NCBI GenBank assembly: GCA_013289705.1
Contig: JABCZM010000008.1
Location: 1 to 64,000 of the forward strand
Source of the DNA: Candidatus Saccharimonadota bacterium
GTDB taxonomy: Bacteria > Patescibacteriota > Saccharimonadia > Saccharimonadales > UBA4665
Length of the DNA: 64,000 bases
Reading direction: 5' to 3'
Part shown: positions 123 through 8,638 of the stretch, piece after piece
Layout of the letters: each line of letters opens with the position of its first letter
Position numbering within the stretch: the stretch's first letter is position 1
Program-made: the position numbers and the translations under genes
The notes under the pieces: model-generated
Database searches by the model: none
The model's input: the letters and a program-made list of their open reading frames with translations, nothing else
What the model was told of the DNA's origin: nothing

Positions 123-878
123 TCAGTGAAATTCCTTTGCTAAAGCTGCCCTTTTATTGTCATCTGAAATAACTATAAGACCGGTAATTTCTGGACTGAA
201 TTGTGCTGCCAGCGCATCTTCACGGCCGTCTCCCGCATATAATATGGGGTAATGCTCTGGCCTACCAACTATCCGCGCGGCTAGGTATATCGAATAGTTG
301 GCGGGTTTGCAAAGTGAGTGCCGTATTTGGGGGTGCCTAGCATGTTCGCTTCTTAATTGATCCTGTCCGATAATCGCCCGGCTTGGGAAGGCTTGTCTTA
401 TGGGCAGAGCTTCTGAATCAATTCTTCTAAAAAATTCATATAACATCGATTCCGGACTTTGGGTCGCAATACCGGATCTTCGTTCCCTTTCGACAAGCAT
501 TTGTACAAGTGAATGGACACCTGGCATTAGGCGATCGATAGGATTAATGTCATCTCTCATTAGGTCGGTTATTATTTCTTCCTGTAAAGCACAGGCCCCG
601 AGTAATTCTTTGGCTGATAGTTCAGATAATCCTAGTTCTCTATGGATTACCTGAAGCACTCGTGCGGGGCTTTTGCCACGTAGTTTTTGTACTAGATCTT
701 GCGTGTACTTAATGGTAGAACCGGTTACTTGTTCCATGGTTGCGTTGAATGATGCGCTATGCAAATCACTTGTTTCGGCGAGCGTATGATCAAAATCAGA
801 CACAAACGTGACGTCCGGATCGTAGAACATGTCGCGTAGTGTATCAAGACTTCCGGCTCCCGCAAATATATTAGTCAT
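123..878 (-). CDS. HAD-superfamily phosphatase, last gene of the trp transcript
   Basis: This is a 251-residue haloacid-dehalogenase-type hydrolase, expected to remove a phosphate from a small metabolite in the cytoplasm; the substrate is unknown. Motif I is visible near residues 28-32 (DFDHT, the nucleophile and acid/base aspartates), and motif IV near the C-terminus as GDGREDA. An upstream ATG at 893 is possible, but I prefer 878 because AAAGGA lies about 7 bases ahead of it, and because it overlaps the end of the preceding trpC-kinase gene in an ATGACTAA arrangement typical of translational coupling. Its position after the TrpC-kinase fusion suggests it acts on a related sugar phosphate, but that is inference. 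Confidence 0.75.
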   Translation of the reverse strand: MTNIFAGAGSLDTLRDMFYDPDVTFVSDFDHTLAETSDLHSASFNATMEQVTGSTIKYTQDLVQKLRGKSPARVLQVIHRELGLSELSAKELLGACALQEEIITDLMRDDINPIDRLMPGVHSLVQMLVERERRSGIATQSPESMLYEFFRRIDSEALPIRQAFPSRAIIGQDQLRSEHARHPQIRHSLCKPANYSIYLAARIVGRPEHYPILYAGDGREDALAAQFSPEITGLIVISDDNKRAALAKEFH

Positions 879-2526
879 TACGTTTCCTTTCATATTGTTT
901 CCGATAAAATGAGTTATTTAATAGTACTTTTGCCGATTCGATTTGGGCAGCGTTGACAATAGTTTTTAGGTCTTCTTCAAGGCTCATGCTATTGGCGACC
1001 ATGCCCATAACGGTGCCAGCAAACACATCGCCGGCATTGGCAGGACTTAATGGTGTTATTTTTTGAGGTGGCACAAACTGTTGTATGTCATGACGCGACA
1101 AGACCGTGACGCCTGCGCTACCTTGCTTCCGAAATACAAACTGTAATTTCGGAAAGTTTGTGAGTAAGTCACCCTCTATCTTCGTAAGTACGTAATCATA
1201 TTCTTGTTGATTCAAAAATAAGTAGTCGGCCTTACTGATTAGTTTTAGCGAATCTTTAAGATTGTGACGCAAATGATAATGCAGCATATCGGTTGCTATA
1301 ACGGCTGGATGTTTCAGCTGTTCAAGGACTCTGAGTCCATTTGCTGGGTTCGATCCACTTAGTAGTACGTGTGTAGTGTTGCCAGAAAGGTTTTTGTTTA
1401 GCAATGGTTTGTAGTCTTTGTAGACGCCAAAATCAATCAATTCATCGCAGAGTTCAAAACTTACTGGATCATATGTGCCACTCCAACGAAACGTTTGTCC
1501 AGGTATTTCAGCTACATTTGCCACGCTTACTTTATCGCCAACAGATTGGCCTAATTTCGCAACCCCCAGGTCATTACCTATACCGCTCACAAGGTCAACG
1601 GGGACATGTCTGCTAGCAGCAATGCTGGCCAGCACACCGTTCCCTCCAATGTCAGGCTGTCCGTATGACTGGCCAATGAATGTGACGGTTGATAGCTCAG
1701 TAGCACCAAATACTAACAGTCGATTTATTGACCGTGAGTGAAGCTCGCTAAGCTTTTCGCGGATGTTGTCAGATTTCATCAGTACAGTCCCTATTAGTAC
1801 TGCATCGGCACCATTTTCTCGAGCAGATGCAATATCTTTAGCGCTGGTGATACCCGACTCGGCGACGAGTAGTACATTGTCTGGAACAGTGGCCGCAAAC
1901 TTTGAAAAAAGCTTGGTCTCCACAGTAAAAGTTCCCAAATCGCGACAATTAATGCCGATTATTTGTGCTCCCGCTTTAATACCACGATCTATTTCATCGA
2001 CTGAATGCACTTCTACCAAAGCGTACATCCCCAGTTCCGTACAGACCTTAAGCAGATCACACAATTGGTCTTGTGACAAAAGCGAAACAATCAATAAGAC
2101 TGCATCGGCCTCAGCAAGGTACGATTCATAGATTTGATATTGATCAAAAATGAAGTCCTTGCGGAGTATCGGGACGTTTGATTCTTGCTTGACCGTGGCG
2201 ATGTAAGACAAGTCACCCAGAAAATATCTACTCTCTGTTAAAACAGATATTGCATCTACAAACCCCGATTGCTCGTAGGTTTTACTAATGACGACAGGAT
2301 TAAAGTGCTTTCGAATTATTCCTTCTGACGGTGACGCTTGTTTTATTTCTGCTATCAGGCTACAGCGGCCAGCTTTAGTGATCCCTGCGCTAAAATCTCT
2401 TACCTCTGTTTTTCGCTTAGTCAAAGACTTTTTGAGTACGGCGAGGGGCCTTCGTTTCTTTAATTGTGTAAGCTCGTGTTGTTTGTTTGCTACTATATCG
2501 TCTAGGCTAATGCGCTCATCTTTCAT
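871..2526 (-). CDS. trpC: indole-3-glycerol-phosphate synthase fused to PfkB-type sugar kinase
   Basis: The 551-residue protein joins two enzymes. Residues 1 to about 262 are a complete TrpC beta/alpha barrel, which closes carboxyphenylaminodeoxyribulose phosphate to indole-3-glycerol phosphate. Its conserved residues are visible: EIK (60-62) before SPS, K123 in RKDF, E172 in VEVH, N193 in GINC and E223-S224 in AESG. Residues about 269-540 are a ribokinase/PfkB-like kinase with an N-terminal Gly-Gly motif (DIGGN) and a C-terminal anion-hole motif NAGD with the presumed catalytic D500. I know of no standard TrpC-PfkB fusion; the kinase substrate cannot be told. The start at 2526 has AAGGAG 8 bases upstream. 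The gene follows trpR and an attenuator, and overlaps the HAD gene by 8 bases. Confidence 0.88.
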   Translation of the reverse strand: MKDERISLDDIVANKQHELTQLKKRRPLAVLKKSLTKRKTEVRDFSAGITKAGRCSLIAEIKQASPSEGIIRKHFNPVVISKTYEQSGFVDAISVLTESRYFLGDLSYIATVKQESNVPILRKDFIFDQYQIYESYLAEADAVLLIVSLLSQDQLCDLLKVCTELGMYALVEVHSVDEIDRGIKAGAQIIGINCRDLGTFTVETKLFSKFAATVPDNVLLVAESGITSAKDIASARENGADAVLIGTVLMKSDNIREKLSELHSRSINRLLVFGATELSTVTFIGQSYGQPDIGGNGVLASIAASRHVPVDLVSGIGNDLGVAKLGQSVGDKVSVANVAEIPGQTFRWSGTYDPVSFELCDELIDFGVYKDYKPLLNKNLSGNTTHVLLSGSNPANGLRVLEQLKHPAVIATDMLHYHLRHNLKDSLKLISKADYLFLNQQEYDYVLTKIEGDLLTNFPKLQFVFRKQGSAGVTVLSRHDIQQFVPPQKITPLSPANAGDVFAGTVMGMVANSMSLEEDLKTIVNAAQIESAKVLLNNSFYRKQYERKRND

Positions 2527-2969: not shown

Positions 2970-2981
2970 GTTCTATGTCAA
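2952..2981 (-). promoter_or_regulatory. internal promoter of trpR-trpC
   Basis: TTGACA (2981-2976, overlapping the aroK stop codon) and TAGTAT (2957-2952) are separated by 18 bases. The ATG of trpR is only 7 bases past the -10, so transcription should begin at or next to the start codon, giving a leaderless mRNA; no Shine-Dalgarno sequence is present. Confidence 0.8.
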
Positions 2982-3514
2982 TACGGGGTTTTGTCCATGA
3001 GGTACAAAATTAAAGTTGCTGCTTGGTTGATGCTATTTCTTTCGGTGTCTATTCTCACGTCCATAACATCCAGGTATAGTCTGGTTCGTTGTTGTTCTAA
3101 AACTGTTAGTTCACTGAGTAATGTTGTCTCGCTCGTCAGCTTTGGGCGATTTGGGTCATTAGTAATTCGGCGTTCCAATACATCCGCCGGTGCGTGAAGC
3201 CACGCAACAAAACCCAGATTGCGAAGCGGCGGGATGTTTTCGGGTATGGTCACAATGCCGCCGCCTGTAGAAATGATGGCGTCCGTCGTATCTTCTAAGC
3301 TTGCCAACACAGCTGATTCGTGCGCACGAAAATAGCCCCAACCATGTGCCTCGACCGCGTCGGGGATTGACTGTCCCATAAGCTTTGCGGTCATCTTATC
3401 GGTTTCAAAGAGTTCTCTGCCGGTTATGGTGGCTAGGCGTCTGCCAATTGCACTCTTTCCTGTGCCTCGAAGGCCTACTTCGACGATGTTGTTGGGCTTT
3501 TGTGTGGTACTCAT
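2978..3514 (-). CDS. aroK: shikimate kinase
   Basis: 178 residues, a P-loop kinase that phosphorylates the 3-hydroxyl of shikimate, step five of the shikimate pathway. The Walker A motif GLRGTGKSAIG is near residues 14-24, the shikimate-binding GGG appears in STGGGIV, and the lid region carries RPKL. Length is normal for the family. The start overlaps the end of ilvE by 4 bases (ATGA). The stop codon lies inside the -35 of the trpR promoter. It is part of the aromatic operon read from the promoter at 7708. Confidence 0.92.
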   Translation of the reverse strand: MSTTQKPNNIVEVGLRGTGKSAIGRRLATITGRELFETDKMTAKLMGQSIPDAVEAHGWGYFRAHESAVLASLEDTTDAIISTGGGIVTIPENIPPLRNLGFVAWLHAPADVLERRITNDPNRPKLTSETTLLSELTVLEQQRTRLYLDVMDVRIDTERNSINQAATLILYLMDKTPY

Positions 3515-4421
3515 GACGGTACCTTTGTAAACAGTCCTGGATGTGTAGTTGGTAAATTGATGAATGATTCATGAAGTTTACGACTAATCGGCCCTTCTTT
3601 GCTGCTAATTTTAACATTATCAACCTTGGCGCACCACGAAATTTCTACGGCCGTACCGCAAAAGAATAGTTCGTCGGCAGTGTAGAGTTCGGTGCGGTTG
3701 ATTGTCCGTTCGACAACGGGGATGCTTTGCTCTTTTGCTAACTCAATAACAGTGCGCCGTGTAATGCCTTCCAGGATATCGGCATCGGTTGTGGGCGTAA
3801 TCAGCTCACCGTCTTTAACCATAAACAGGTTCATAACGGCGCCTTCGCCCACGTTACCAGCTTGATTAAGTAAAATTGCCGAATCGAACCCGGCTTGCTT
3901 GGCATCGTGAATGGCAAGTGACGAATTCAGGTAGCCACCGGAGGCTTTGGTACGCGGCGGCAGTGCATTATCGGCGTTGCGTTGCCAGCTTGACACGCAA
4001 ACGGATAGGCCTTTATCCGCTTCAAAGTACGAAGGCATACCAATAAGGTAGACGCTTAAATCGTAGTCGCCAGCGATGTCTGGCGAAAGCTGCAAGTCGG
4101 ATCGGTACACCAGTGGACGGGGATGTAGGTTGTACCAGTCGGCTTGTTTTTGGCTACCAATTCGACGATGGTACTTTTGATCGCCGCTTCGTCGAAATTA
4201 AATGGAAAGCGCAGTATTTTGCAGCTATTTTTCATGCGCTTTAGATGGTCGTCAAGCCGAAAGATGCCTACGGCTCCATCGGGCATTTGGTAGGCTTTGA
4301 TACCGGCAAACACACCTGCGCCGTAGTGTAGTGCATTTGTCATAACAGATACGGTTGCTTCTTCGATGGGCACAATGTTGCCACGGATGAAAGCGAAGGG
4401 GTATGGTTGAAATTCGGCCAT
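3511..4421 (-). pseudogene. ilvE: branched-chain/aromatic aminotransferase, frameshifted
   Basis: Two overlapping reading frames together make one class IV PLP aminotransferase. The N-terminal part runs from 4421 and the C-terminal part, which includes LVYRSD, GEGAVMNLF and EGITRRTVIEL, ends at 3511. Class IV enzymes usually read YIRPL here; the first frame reads YIPVH because of a run of four C's (4119-4122 on the plus strand as GGGG). Removing two bases restores the exact family sequence; adding one also restores the frame with an extra Pro. No classical slippery heptamer is present. It could be a consensus error in a homopolymer or a real lesion. In this operon the enzyme would transaminate the final keto acids to phenylalanine, tyrosine or branched-chain amino acids. 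Confidence 0.8.
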
Positions 4422-4423
4422 AG

Positions 4424-5488
4424 TTAGTTTCCTTTCGGGTATGATCCTAGTAGTTTACAGCTTTTTGCGGTGTTATTTAAGGCTTCGAGCGCTTTTGCCA
4501 CATTCGCGGTGTCTTTGTGACCTTCAAAATCAATATAGAATGCATATTGATGATCTGGGTGCGGCTGCGATTCCAAGCGAAGCAAGTTAATTCCGTTTGC
4601 TACAAAAATACCTAGCAGTTCATGCAGTGCGCCAGGTTTATCTGTAGTCGTGCAAATAACACTTGTTTTATCGCTGTCTGTAGGCTCAGTTGCGGCTTTG
4701 CCTAGTAGTACAAAGCGGGTTTCATTACTGACGTTATCGCTTATTGCCTTTGCTATAACCGGAAGTCCTACGATGTCGGCAGCCTTTTTGCTAGCAATTG
4801 CTGCGCTTGTTGGCTCATTGGCGGCTTGTTGTGCCGCCTGGCTGTTGCTTGATGCCGGTACTAGTTCGGCCTGCGACACGTGCGTACGGAGCCATTCTCG
4901 GCATTGGCCGAGTGCCTGGGGGTGGCCGTAGACAACTTTGATGTCGTCTAGCGTCTTTGCGCTACTTAACAGATTGTGTTGAATTGGTAGACGGACTTCG
5001 CCGATGATACTTAGAGCAGTGCTCAGAAGCAGCTTATGTGTCTCTGTTACTGAGCCTTCCGATGAATTTTCGATTGGTAGTAAAGCAACCTCGCTTGAGC
5101 CAGACTCGGCCGCCTTAAGCGCATCGCGTAGGGTAGCTTCTGGCACAAAGTTGGAGGTTGCGCCAAGCAGTTTCTGCGCTGCCTCGTGACTATAGCTTCC
5201 AGCAGGCCCCAGATACGAAACCCGCAGCTTTTCTTCCAGATTTCGCCCAGAACTGATGATTTCGGTAAATATGGCTCGAATCGAGTCGTCTGAAAACATG
5301 CTCGTATTTTGTGTAACCATTCGCTGTAGAATTGCAGCCTCACGTGCTGGGCGATAGATTTTGACGCCGCCTTTGACACGCTTCATCTCCACCCCACATA
5401 TGGCACGTTTGGCGAGCAACTGGTTGATTTCGTCATCGATTGCATCGATACGTGTTCGGATAGCTGCAATCTTGTCTGCCTCGTTCAC
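4424..5488 (-). CDS. pheA: bifunctional chorismate mutase / prephenate dehydratase
   Basis: 354 residues in three parts. Residues 1 to about 90 are an AroQ-type chorismate mutase (IRTRIDAIDDEINQLLAKR). About 93-270 are prephenate dehydratase, starting at VSYLGPAGSYSHEAA and carrying the catalytic TRF in NETRFVLLG. About 275-345 are an ACT domain (TTDKPGALHELLG, followed by ESQP in place of the common ESRP), the usual phenylalanine-binding site. It converts chorismate to phenylpyruvate. The start overlaps the tyrA stop by 4 bases, so the two branch enzymes are translationally coupled. Confidence 0.93.
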   Translation of the reverse strand: MNEADKIAAIRTRIDAIDDEINQLLAKRAICGVEMKRVKGGVKIYRPAREAAILQRMVTQNTSMFSDDSIRAIFTEIISSGRNLEEKLRVSYLGPAGSYSHEAAQKLLGATSNFVPEATLRDALKAAESGSSEVALLPIENSSEGSVTETHKLLLSTALSIIGEVRLPIQHNLLSSAKTLDDIKVVYGHPQALGQCREWLRTHVSQAELVPASSNSQAAQQAANEPTSAAIASKKAADIVGLPVIAKAISDNVSNETRFVLLGKAATEPTDSDKTSVICTTTDKPGALHELLGIFVANGINLLRLESQPHPDHQYAFYIDFEGHKDTANVAKALEALNNTAKSCKLLGSYPKGN

Positions 5489-6231
5489 AATTGTTTCCTT
5501 TCTAAACCTGCTTCAAGTTCAGTGAGTGTTTGCATAAACCGTTCTCTGACTTGTTTGGCGTATGGATTGCCAAGCTCCACCGTCTCGAATAGCTCTATGC
5601 TATGGGTCTTTTCTAGTTCAAACAAATCGAGCAGCTTGCGGTAGTAGCCGGTGTCGAGTGTCAAATTCGGCAAATCCATGTTTACTAATCCTCGGCCAAC
5701 GAAAAAGGTTAGCCCGTGCACCCAAGCCATTTGTTTATCATGATCTTCTGGCGTCATCTGTAGCAACTCAAGTCCAAGATTATCCGTAAACAATGCTTCG
5801 AGCTCTGGAAATGGTCCACCACTAAGCTCATGCCAGACCAGTTTAAAGCCTTTAGCGGTGTTGGGGTTATCTGCCACCGAGTTTGGTCCGAACATGGGGT
5901 GGGTTGCCAACAGTCGACACTTGCCTTCCAGATGCTGCTGCAAAATCTGTGAGGGCTTAACTTTTACGGAACAAACATCCATAACGATGGTTTGGGGCTG
6001 CACGAGTGGAGCTAACTGCTTGCAAATATCGTTTAGACTGGCAAGTTCGGTAGCGATAATTATTGCTGAACAATGAGCAACTTCTTCTAGGCTGCCGTGC
6101 CTTGTATTATCTGGTAGCATGTCTGCGCTAACATCCTGACGACTATGTATGAGAACCGGCAGGTGGGGTGCAATCAGGTCTGTGAGCAGTCTACCGAACG
6201 ACCCGAAGCCGATGATCCCTATCGTTTCCAT
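5485..6231 (-). CDS. tyrA: prephenate dehydrogenase
   Basis: 248 residues with an N-terminal Rossmann fold (IGIIGFGSFGRLL) for NAD(P), followed by the TyrA catalytic segment ATHPMFGPNS. It makes the tyrosine precursor from prephenate or arogenate. It is short: there is no fused chorismate mutase and no C-terminal ACT domain, so direct tyrosine feedback may be weak, which fits with control at the transcriptional leader. It follows DAHP synthase after 3 bases and overlaps pheA by 4. Confidence 0.88.
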   Translation of the reverse strand: METIGIIGFGSFGRLLTDLIAPHLPVLIHSRQDVSADMLPDNTRHGSLEEVAHCSAIIIATELASLNDICKQLAPLVQPQTIVMDVCSVKVKPSQILQQHLEGKCRLLATHPMFGPNSVADNPNTAKGFKLVWHELSGGPFPELEALFTDNLGLELLQMTPEDHDKQMAWVHGLTFFVGRGLVNMDLPNLTLDTGYYRKLLDLFELEKTHSIELFETVELGNPYAKQVRERFMQTLTELEAGLERKQL

Positions 6232-6234
6232 TTG

Positions 6235-7530
6235 CTAGGCCATCACTGCTTGCTTATTTGGTTTAGCCGTATTCTCTGCAATGATTTTTCGTCTTGTTTC
6301 GACTGCTTGCGATAGCAGCGTTAGCATTACAGTGGTCTCCTCTACGTCAACACAACTATCGGTGACACTTTTACCTTTTTCTAGGGTATCTAGTGGTCCT
6401 ATTTTTTGTGCGCCTTCGACCAAGTTTGATTCAATCATGACACCGCGTAATGCCAATTCACCTAATGCGATCTGTCCTGCGACCGATTCAATTACTTTTA
6501 TTTGGTTGCGGTAATCCTTTTCGCTGTTACCGTGGGATGCGTCAACCACAATCGCCTCGAGTAACGGTGACTTGTTATTTTTTATACGATCTGTGGTGAG
6601 CGCCCTCTTAGCTTCTTGGACCTTTTCGGTCGAGTAGTTTGGGCCACTCTTGCCACCACGAAGGATGAGGTGAGCCGTGTCGTTACCGGTAGTTTTGACC
6701 TTGCTTAGGTTTCCATCCATGTCGGAGCCAGGGTAGTTGTGGGGTGCGTTGACCGTTTCGATCGCATCAGCTGCGTCGCTAACACCACCGTCAGTGCCGT
6801 TTTTGATACCAATAATTGATGATGTTGCCGAGCCGTATTCGCGCGCGTTCTGATCGGCTACATTACGGGCACCAATTGCGTCGTATGCAACCAGACCGTT
6901 CAAGTACTGAGGAGTTAGGCCGTTCAAGCGTTCCATGGCGGTCGGTACACCCATGTCGGTAATCTTTCGTGCCAACATGCGCGTGAGGGTCAGGCCTAAG
7001 TTTATGTTACTGCTATTGTCAAGGAGCGGATCGTAGGTCATGCCTTTCCAGCCAATTGTGCTTCGCGGTTTTTCGGTGTAGGCACGCATAACAACTTCTA
7101 AGTTTGCGCCATATTCTTTGCGCCACCCAGCAACTCGTGATGCGTATTCTAGCGCGGCTTCTGGATCGTGAAGAGAACATGGCCCAACAATCACGAGCAA
7201 TCTGTCGTCCGTGCCTTTTATGATCTGCTCGGCAATAATTCTGCCCTGTCGAGTTGTGTCCGCAGAGTTTTGAGACAGCGGCAAGCGTCTTTCAAGCAAT
7301 CCGGGGGTGATAACTGGTGTTTTGCTGGCAATCCGCACATCTACCAAATCTGTCATGTCCACATTTGGCGTAGGCCACTGATCCACCAAGCTAGCTGCTT
7401 CAAGAAATTCTGATCCTTGATTTCTGGTTGTGGCGTTCATTTCCAGCTGTATGGCCTCAAGTTCGCCGGCAATCCGTAACGCCTCGTCTACCATTGTATG
7501 TTCATGTGTTGTATCTATTTCTGATGTCAT
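6235..7530 (-). CDS. aroG: DAHP synthase (3-deoxy-7-phosphoheptulonate synthase), AroFGH type
   Basis: 431 residues, catalysing the first committed step of aromatic synthesis from phosphoenolpyruvate and erythrose 4-phosphate. Family motifs are IVGPCSLHDP (metal-ligand Cys118), EKPRSTIGWKG, GIKNGTDG, LILRGGKSGPNYS, DASHGNS, MIESNLVEG and KSVTDSC. The enzyme has about 57 more N-terminal residues than E. coli AroG. Several blocks normally conserved in AroFGH, including the GEFLD and RTTESQ regions, are changed (AMERLN, RNVADQ), so its feedback behaviour may differ. It has AAAGGGAG ahead of the start and is the first full gene after the aromatic leader. Confidence 0.93.
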   Translation of the reverse strand: MTSEIDTTHEHTMVDEALRIAGELEAIQLEMNATTRNQGSEFLEAASLVDQWPTPNVDMTDLVDVRIASKTPVITPGLLERRLPLSQNSADTTRQGRIIAEQIIKGTDDRLLVIVGPCSLHDPEAALEYASRVAGWRKEYGANLEVVMRAYTEKPRSTIGWKGMTYDPLLDNSSNINLGLTLTRMLARKITDMGVPTAMERLNGLTPQYLNGLVAYDAIGARNVADQNAREYGSATSSIIGIKNGTDGGVSDAADAIETVNAPHNYPGSDMDGNLSKVKTTGNDTAHLILRGGKSGPNYSTEKVQEAKRALTTDRIKNNKSPLLEAIVVDASHGNSEKDYRNQIKVIESVAGQIALGELALRGVMIESNLVEGAQKIGPLDTLEKGKSVTDSCVDVEETTVMLTLLSQAVETRRKIIAENTAKPNKQAVMA

Positions 7531-7554
7531 CTCTTCTTCTCCCTTTATGATATT

Positions 7555-7635
7555 AAAAAACCGCCTTGGTGGCGGTTTGGTTGTTTCTTATTCGTTTGTG
7601 CTATACAGCAAAATATCCGCCACGGGTGGTGTCGG
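7555..7635 (-). promoter_or_regulatory. aromatic amino-acid attenuator before DAHP synthase
   Basis: The terminator has arms AAACCGCC (7578-7571) and GGCGG (7565-7561), followed by six T's (7560-7555). The antiterminator is a perfect 7-bp pairing of GTGGCGG (7623-7617) with CCGCCAC (7575-7569). A competing 1:2 hairpin pairs CCG and CCA (7635-7627) with TGG and CGG. The Trp-Phe-Tyr-Phe codons end at 7637, immediately before segment 1, so a ribosome paused on any of them would cover segment 1 and favour the antiterminator. Pairings were made by inspection. Confidence 0.87.
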
Positions 7636-7672
7636 TAAAATAAAACCAGTTAGTCTGTATAGTCTTTTTCAT
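7601..7672 (-). CDS. aromatic leader peptide (consecutive Trp-Phe-Tyr-Phe)
   Basis: A 23-residue ORF starting MKKTIQT and containing the run W-F-Y-F (codons 7648-7637) and a later Tyr-Phe. All three aromatic amino acids made by this pathway are read in four adjacent codons, so a shortage of any one should stall the ribosome. The ATG is 9 bases past the -10 of the promoter, so the message is probably leaderless. A longer ORF upstream in the same frame runs through the previous terminator and is not real. I do not know of a described leader with this combined W-F-Y-F run. Confidence 0.87.
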   Translation of the reverse strand: MKKTIQTNWFYFTDTTRGGYFAV

Positions 7673-7680
7673 ACCACTGT

Positions 7681-7708
7681 AATATATCACGTCTATTTGT
7701 ATTGTCAA
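7681..7708 (-). promoter_or_regulatory. promoter of the aromatic operon
   Basis: TTGACA (7708-7703), a 16-base spacer, then TATATT (7686-7681). The start codon of the leader peptide is 9 bases further, leaving essentially no 5' untranslated region. It lies just after the rpsI terminator. Confidence 0.82.
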
Positions 7709-7715
7709 ATAAATT

Positions 7716-7740
7716 AAAAAGTCCCGAGTTGCATCGGGAC
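7716..7740 (-). terminator. terminator after rpsI
   Basis: Arms GTCCCGA and TCGGGAC with a 6-base loop, followed by TTTTT on the minus strand. It closes the infA-rpsI ribosomal transcript and separates it from the aromatic operon promoter. Confidence 0.88.
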
Positions 7741-7763
7741 TTTTATCATGCGTAGAACTCGTA

Positions 7764-8167: not shown

Positions 8168-8638
8168 TTATTTCCCTTCCTTATCTTGTATCTTTTCCGC
8201 GCCGCGGAGGGAGAATGTCTCTGGTTTCTGTGCTTCGTGCTTGTGGTCTGCATCGGCATAGATCTTGAGTCGAGCCAAGCGTGCATCACGGAGCTTGTTG
8301 ACAGGTAGCATACCGCGAATCGCGTGTTCCAGGACCTTTGTTGGGTCAAGGTTCATCTGCTCCTGCAATGTACGCTCACGGAGACCACCTGGGTGACCAC
8401 TGTGATGGTAGTACATTTTGCTTGTGAGCTTGTCGCCGGTAACCTTGAGGCTTGCGGCGTTAATAACAACGACGAAGTCACCGCAGTCGATGTGCTTCGT
8501 AAATTGTGGCTTACTCTTGCCGGTTAGCAGTACGGCAACCTGTGTCGCAACACGGCCAAGCGTAACTTCTGAGGCATCAACAACGTACCACTTTCGCGTA
8601 ACATCCGTTGGTTTTGCGCTAAATGTCTTCTGGGCCAT
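8168..8638 (-). CDS. rplM: 50S ribosomal protein L13
   Basis: 156 residues. HIDCGDFVVVINA and YYHHSGHPGGL with EHAIRGMLPVNKL are the L13 core; the C-terminus is slightly extended. The start overlaps the rplQ stop by one base. L13 is an early-assembling 23S rRNA binder; the rplM-rpsI pair here is attached to the end of the alpha operon. Confidence 0.96.
   Translation of the reverse strand: MAQKTFSAKPTDVTRKWYVVDASEVTLGRVATQVAVLLTGKSKPQFTKHIDCGDFVVVINAASLKVTGDKLTSKMYYHHSGHPGGLRERTLQEQMNLDPTKVLEHAIRGMLPVNKLRDARLARLKIYADADHKHEAQKPETFSLRGAEKIQDKEGK

Follow-up and report, generated by a model that had tools for sequence, protein, structure and literature searches.

The window, as the whole 64,000-nt stretch of DNA analyzed here is called, carries an operon for aromatic amino acid synthesis on its minus strand, comprising a class I DAHP synthase gene, tyrA, pheA, a class IV aminotransferase gene, aroK, and trpC fused to a gene for a PfkB-type kinase (Table 1). 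The two reading frames of the aminotransferase overlap at 4056–4110 (minus strand), which indicates a frameshift, either real or due to a sequencing error. Neither chorismate synthase (PF01264) nor a TrpE-type protein (PF00425) was detected in the window genome, whose assembly is 97% complete, and both were detected in 14 of 14 control genomes. The pathway of the operon is incomplete in this assembly, and since chorismate synthase and TrpE were undetected, the operon may not make all three aromatic amino acids. The genes trpB, trpA, and trpS lie on another contig (C13), which ends 204 nt before trpB. An attempt to join this contig to that of the window (C8) as one possible large operon gave no exact end overlap, and on C13 trpB is preceded by a GC-rich, terminator-like hairpin. 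Similar inverted stretches (CTGAACCAC[AG]TGCACTTCAAACC) were noticed at both contig ends, beside the operon at 1–122 of the window and before trpB at 8458–8661 of L142, and may represent a repeat at which the assembly was interrupted.

Table 1. Genes and regulatory features of the aromatic operon and its leader region (window positions)
Feature	Position	Strand	Basis or remarks
Terminator of the upstream rpsI unit	7717..7744	-	Leader opens its own unit
-35 box TTGACA	7703..7708	-	Sequence read
-10 box TATATT, preceded by TG	7681..7686	-	Ends 8 nt before leader ATG
Leader ORF, 23 codons, MKKTIQTNWFYFTDTTRGGYFAV	7601..7672	-	ATG 7672-7670, stop TAG 7603-7601; conserved in family
Control codons W F Y F	7637..7648	-	TGG 7648-7646, TTT 7645-7643, TAT 7642-7640, TTT 7639-7637
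Segment 1, ACCGACAC, partner of segment 2	7629..7636	-	1:2 covariation
Segment 2, GTGGCGG, 5′ arm of antiterminator	7617..7623	-	2:3 covariation; each of the three frames occurs among relatives
Segment 3, CCGCCAC, 3′ arm of antiterminator and 5′ arm of terminator	7569..7575	-	2:3 and 3:4 covariation
Intrinsic terminator, AAACCGCC (ACCAA) GGCGGTTT + T6	7555..7578	-	Stem 7578-7571 / 7565-7558, T6 7560-7555
Segment 4, GGCGG	7561..7565	-	Within 3′ arm of terminator; 3:4 covariation
Shine-Dalgarno sequence AAGGGAG of DAHP synthase gene	7539..7545	-	Sequence read; gene ATG at 7530
DAHP synthase, class I (DAHP_synth_1)	6235..7530	-	E 7e-66
Prephenate dehydrogenase (tyrA)	5485..6231	-	PDH_N, E 9e-14
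Chorismate mutase - prephenate dehydratase - ACT (pheA)	4424..5488	-	Domain search
Class IV aminotransferase, two frames	3511..4421	-	4421-4056 and 4110-3511
Shikimate kinase (aroK)	2978..3514	-	Domain search
Indole-3-glycerol-phosphate synthase (trpC) fused to PfkB-type kinase	871..2526	-	Domain search

The region in front of the DAHP synthase gene contained every element of the original prediction at the coordinates given there, with a 23-codon leader containing four consecutive aromatic codons, a 7-bp antiterminator (GTGGCGG:CCGCCAC), and a terminator formed by GGCGG and six T residues. The terminator stem has eight pairs, five of them GC, and starts 22 nt after the leader stop codon (7601). 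Two elements had been overlooked, namely the promoter, with a 16-nt spacer and 11 of 12 consensus matches, and segment 1. As segment 1 pairs with segment 2, which in turn is complementary to segment 3 over 7 bp, the layout is that of a full four-segment attenuator. Since the -10 box ends so close to the leader ATG, the leader mRNA is nearly leaderless, and since the rpsI unit upstream has its own terminator, the leader opens a separate transcription unit. A short ORF with four consecutive aromatic codons followed by a strong terminator occurred once in the 64-kb window and in none of 40 first-order Markov windows; the conservation described below argues more strongly against a chance arrangement. 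The global fold of the leader was unremarkable (z -1.6), a value to be expected of a switch RNA. A tRNA was the sole match of curated Rfam models in the window at gathering score, with attenuator families and the T-box unmatched; a T-box was rejected on this ground and because the architecture is that of a leader ORF.

DAHP synthase is uncommon among the relatives, with any match in only 9 of 60. The three closest homologues of the window enzyme, in L003, L002, and L004, were all preceded by a leader of the same kind (MSRLSANSNQYWFTDSSRGGYFAVFA, MSTHRQSISNYWFTDFMEAVLL, and MSSNQQNCAYWFTPYYPSGYLAVSA, respectively), giving four of four loci with the window included. A search for the leader pattern Y-W-F-T-D retrieved the same leader from many genomes without that DAHP synthase, usually with the tryptophanyl-tRNA synthetase gene trpS downstream. 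A covariance model (R1) was built from 24 leaders, and it matched the window, itself one of these 24, with an E-value of 2.4e-15. In 393 genomes of the class, R1 found about 75 places besides the window at E < 1e-7 and about 85 at E < 1e-6; at E ≤ 0.01, matches came from 181 of the 393 genomes, with plain terminators included among the weak ones. Among 240 genomes drawn from the phylum, true members occurred only within the order (Saccharibacteria). R1 also gave a few matches in the phylum outside the order (L243–L247), which were rejected as members, having the look of plain terminators and lacking both an aromatic leader and a reference-gene match downstream. A separate scan of 30 trpS upstream regions, which used only the presence of a short ORF and a terminator and not the leader sequence, returned W/F/Y-rich leaders such as MKSMQQFVYWFYFTGKSLAV, MKALQNYFYFWFTTPQLAV, and MSSISRYYGFWFTNPYKGG, and many of the 30 loci yielded no leader. 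The window element is one member of an order-wide family, in which a Y-W-F core before trpS is the commoner arrangement.

About 80 leaders had a common layout of promoter, near-leaderless ORF, [Y/F]-W-F, and three mutually exclusive helices. Five to ten variable codons are followed by [Y/F]-W-F, segments 1, 2, 3, and 4, and the T tract, and the first gene begins about 20–30 nt past the T tract. In 55 of 67 leaders, the start codon followed the -10 box at a distance of 6–9 nt, and a Shine-Dalgarno core was present in 2 of 81 leaders vs. 55 of 68 first downstream ORFs. Among 81 leaders, an aromatic codon stood at W-1 in 81% and at W+1 in 84%. All of W, F, and Y were present in 63 of the 81, a figure in which W is inflated, as the search model and the pattern contain TGGTTT and the extraction script contains W.

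All three helices covaried in a MAFFT alignment of the 24 leaders (A2), which was not structure-fitted and on whose sequences the helices had been picked by eye. The covariation scores were 0.202 for 1:2, 0.183 for 2:3, and 0.242 for 3:4, compared with at most 0.046, 0.116, and 0.168 in the respective slid controls, and for each helix 0 of 500 shuffles reached the score. In the family f26, segments 1, 2, and 3 changed together from CAC/GTG/CAC to CAG/CTG/CAG, and in L058 a G was replaced by A in segments 2 and 4 together with C by T in segment 3. Cognate 2:3 duplexes were more stable than mismatched ones (-16.3 vs. -14.3 kcal/mol, p 1e-6). Counting against the attenuator, the 1:2 hairpin gained only modestly over shuffled sequences across all leaders (-6.5 vs. 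-6.1 kcal/mol). The conserved leader ORF and covarying stems in relatives, which the original prediction had proposed to look for, were found, the leader ORF with the pattern search and R1 and the covarying stems in the 24-leader alignment.

These data bear on two other explanations of the locus. The hairpin at 7578–7558 alone would terminate transcription, so that it could be a plain terminator between rpsI and the operon, or the site could be under translational or Rho-dependent control, with the leader ORF being incidental. However, the rpsI unit is already terminated at 7744–7717 and a strong promoter comes next, and both the covariation of the three helices and the conservation of the codons make such an explanation very unlikely. 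The leader peptide might alternatively act as a nascent chain in the manner of TnaC or SecM, binding an aromatic ligand or stalling by its sequence, and the tail TDxxRGGYFAV is indeed common to close relatives with synonymous changes (window and L003). In other members, however, the same DNA encodes RGGLFRV, VAVCSVRS, or TWRF. Segment 2 lies in leader frame 0, 2, and 1 in 34, 29, and 9 genomes, respectively, whereas [Y/F]-W-F stays in register as codons; since segment 2 is read in all three frames, it is the RNA segment that is conserved and not the peptide tail. The covariation accounts for the conservation, and nascent-peptide arrest was rejected on the basis of the three frames, keeping hardly any probability.

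What the original prediction proposed, attenuation by a leader peptide, is strongly supported by the conserved leader, the covariation of 1:2, 2:3, and 3:4, and the aromatic gene context, and the aromatic operon of the window is very probably governed by ribosome-mediated transcription attenuation as in the trp and phe operons. RNA polymerase would begin at the leader ATG or immediately upstream of it, so that the 5′ end on which translation starts would be almost leaderless. With ample charged Phe, Tyr, and Trp tRNA, the ribosome would reach the stop codon and cover segment 2, and the 3:4 terminator would form. With charged aromatic tRNA scarce, it would halt at W-F-Y-F and cover segment 1, blocking the 1:2 hairpin; the freed segment 2 would pair with segment 3, and transcription would enter the operon. 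The anatomy, the conservation, the covariation of the three helices, and the gene context are observed directly, and from these we infer the stalling, the termination, and the relevant amino acids. The leader ORF carries codons for end products, antiterminator and terminator exclude each other, and 1:2 would serve as a protector hairpin that a ribosome halted on the control codons frees from segment 2, with a caveat for W that emerged from folding.

The window leader was folded with the nucleotides under the ribosome masked, using assumed values for the limits of the footprint. With a ribosome at the stop codon, the terminator had a probability of 1.00. When the stalled ribosome had F 7645 in its A site, the antiterminator reached 0.89, and with Y 7642 there it reached 0.57. 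At equilibrium, a stall at W allowed 1:2 to form, with the terminator at 0.90, and a stall at F 7639 gave the terminator at 0.98. When segment 4 was left untranscribed, the antiterminator reached 0.67 for all four stalls of the window and dropped from W+5 on. In masked folding of the 81 leaders, the antiterminator held to W+2 and was gone from W+4. In these models, only the kinetic picture, with segment 4 not yet made, rescues the stalls at W and F 7639, and the geometry of the window is predicted to prefer F and Y over W. The expectation that the leader responds to a shortage of any of the three amino acids is plausible: antitermination is predicted at F 7645 and Y 7642, while a stall at W led to the terminator at equilibrium. 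That the window copy senses all three aromatic amino acids is, in our estimation, about evenly balanced.

A sensor of Phe and Tyr like aroR of Corynebacterium glutamicum, in which the W codon persists from the Y-W-F family but is too distant from segment 1 on the upstream side to count, is a tentative but serious alternative. In the window, segment 1 is preceded by F-Y-F at codons -3 to -1 and by W at -4, and the masked folding, in which F and Y led to antitermination but W to termination, points the same way, as does the identity of the next genes, tyrA and pheA. For aroR (F-Y-F), a response to Phe limitation and not to Tyr is reported (PMC11802643). On the other hand, W was kept in the window, in G011 (W-Q-W-F-Y-F), and in G006 (W-F-F-F); a stall at W also permits the antiterminator as long as segment 4 is unmade; and trpC belongs to the operon.

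The genes downstream of the family were nearly all aromatic, namely trpS, DAHP synthase I and II, chorismate mutase (CM), prephenate dehydratase (PDT), and prephenate dehydrogenase (PDH). Behind 54 leaders there was trpS alone, usually with one short variable ORF in between, and behind 21 there were biosynthesis genes, mostly followed by trpS. A divergent class I DAHP synthase was found in G016 and G006, a chorismate mutase in G309, and a class II DAHP synthase in G232, G013, and G018 (by Pfam in G232 and G013, by resemblance in G018). At L208, L039, and L205, the first gene behind the same leader encodes a class II and not a class I DAHP synthase, and the class of the enzyme has been swapped behind the switch at these loci. 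The short ORFs of about 50–110 codons that stand right after the terminator and before trpS (L042, L048, L049, L050, L055, and others) usually have a Shine-Dalgarno sequence and no obvious common sequence, and the idea that they are remnants of DAHP synthase was dropped, as no common sequence was recognized by eye. Several genomes have two leaders in series (G050, G048, G383, G041, and G226), and in such pairs before one operon (L185, L190, L198, L209, L210, and L188) the second often stands before the trpS part. At L192, L195, and L200, the leader precedes a protein without a Pfam match (L195) or similar-looking ones, followed by an M20-peptidase-like protein, and trpS was absent from the stretch read at L192 and L195.

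The number of F and Y codons per leader was 2.95 before biosynthesis genes vs. 2.22 before trpS alone (p 0.004, with relatedness ignored). In the trpS leaders of G209 and G374 (AWRT) and G321 (SWQS), W stands without adjoining F or Y, and the leader of G401 has Y-S-F and no W, with a prephenate dehydrogenase-like gene (assigned by eye) and PDT downstream. Judging by these sequences, the control codons appear to roughly follow the operon content. There may be a single leader type that senses all three amino acids, an attenuator kept order-wide while the operon was rebuilt or eroded and its control codons were re-tuned to what remained (W only before some trpS genes, rich in F/Y before Phe/Tyr genes, W lost once), and we give this view an even chance. 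The family would represent an RNA switch responding to amino acids in bacteria with small genomes, the majority of which do not have this DAHP synthase. It links DAHP synthase and trpS through one putative sensor, its leaders form a natural series for comparing codon with gene content, and it allows a direct test of whether a single attenuator can integrate three amino acids.

The E. coli leaders trpL and pheL respond to one amino acid each and have SD-driven leader translation. The window family shares their four-segment logic (1:2, 2:3, 3:4), with control codons that lie within segment 1 or immediately precede it, and differs from them in its mixed W/F/Y codons and near-leaderless start. The classical ilvGMEDA, ilvB, and thr leaders each serve several related amino acids, and the likeness lies in this multi-amino-acid sensing, although theirs is for branched-chain amino acids or Thr/Ile and not for aromatic ones. 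The DAHP synthase gene aroF of C. glutamicum is under attenuation by aroR (F-Y-F), which responds to Phe and not to Tyr (Neshat et al., 2014, as cited in PMC11802643; PMC4046766). The window resembles aroR-aroF in having an F-Y-F leader before a DAHP synthase gene and ribosome-mediated transcription attenuation, but aroR-aroF belongs to another phylum and one DAHP synthase operon, with no W reported, whereas the window leader adds W, an order-wide family, and use before trpS in relatives. Attenuators of trpS were predicted in Streptomyces (PMC1262725); that of S. avermitilis trpS2 is likewise a leader-peptide attenuator before a tryptophanyl-tRNA synthetase gene, but it is of the Trp type, while the Saccharibacterial family has a Y-W-F core common to biosynthesis operons. 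The Acholeplasma motif uORFC-13-1 upstream of aroF, a Phe uORF (PMC8632094), also has Phe codon(s), and a terminator lies between it and a DAHP synthase gene, but it differs in taxon and structure, has an RBS, and involves Phe only. Attenuators were also predicted before tyrA supraoperons in several phyla (PMC1173090).

Aromatic leaders outside the family were found before DAHP synthase in Burkholderiales (MRVSQSFYFWHFTRTGGLSVR at L106, with a terminator, about 2259–2400; also L107 and L115) and at the actinobacterial loci L222 (VQRVYFWFSKPARGG) and L228/L229 (MNVRFYYF), the latter unlike the window family in sequence. Terminator-like hairpins were seen at most of these six loci. Multi-aromatic leaders before DAHP synthase probably arose more than once. 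A horizontal origin together with an actinobacterial leader was rejected: the nearest non-Saccharibacterial DAHP synthases (Geodermatophilus, about 50% identity; L061, L063–L065) have no such leader upstream, and there is therefore no evidence that the leader travelled with the gene. In the open-access literature searched, leader-peptide attenuation was described neither for Saccharibacteria nor for any other Patescibacteria. The claim that no combined form was known has to be narrowed, given aroR (F-Y-F) before aroF and the multi-amino-acid ilv and thr leaders, and it stands for W+F+Y in this phylum within that literature. Ribosome-mediated transcription attenuation and an F-Y-F leader before DAHP synthase in C. 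glutamicum (aroR) are already known; the Saccharibacterial family, the combined W+F+Y leader, and the use of this leader both for biosynthesis genes and for trpS are new.
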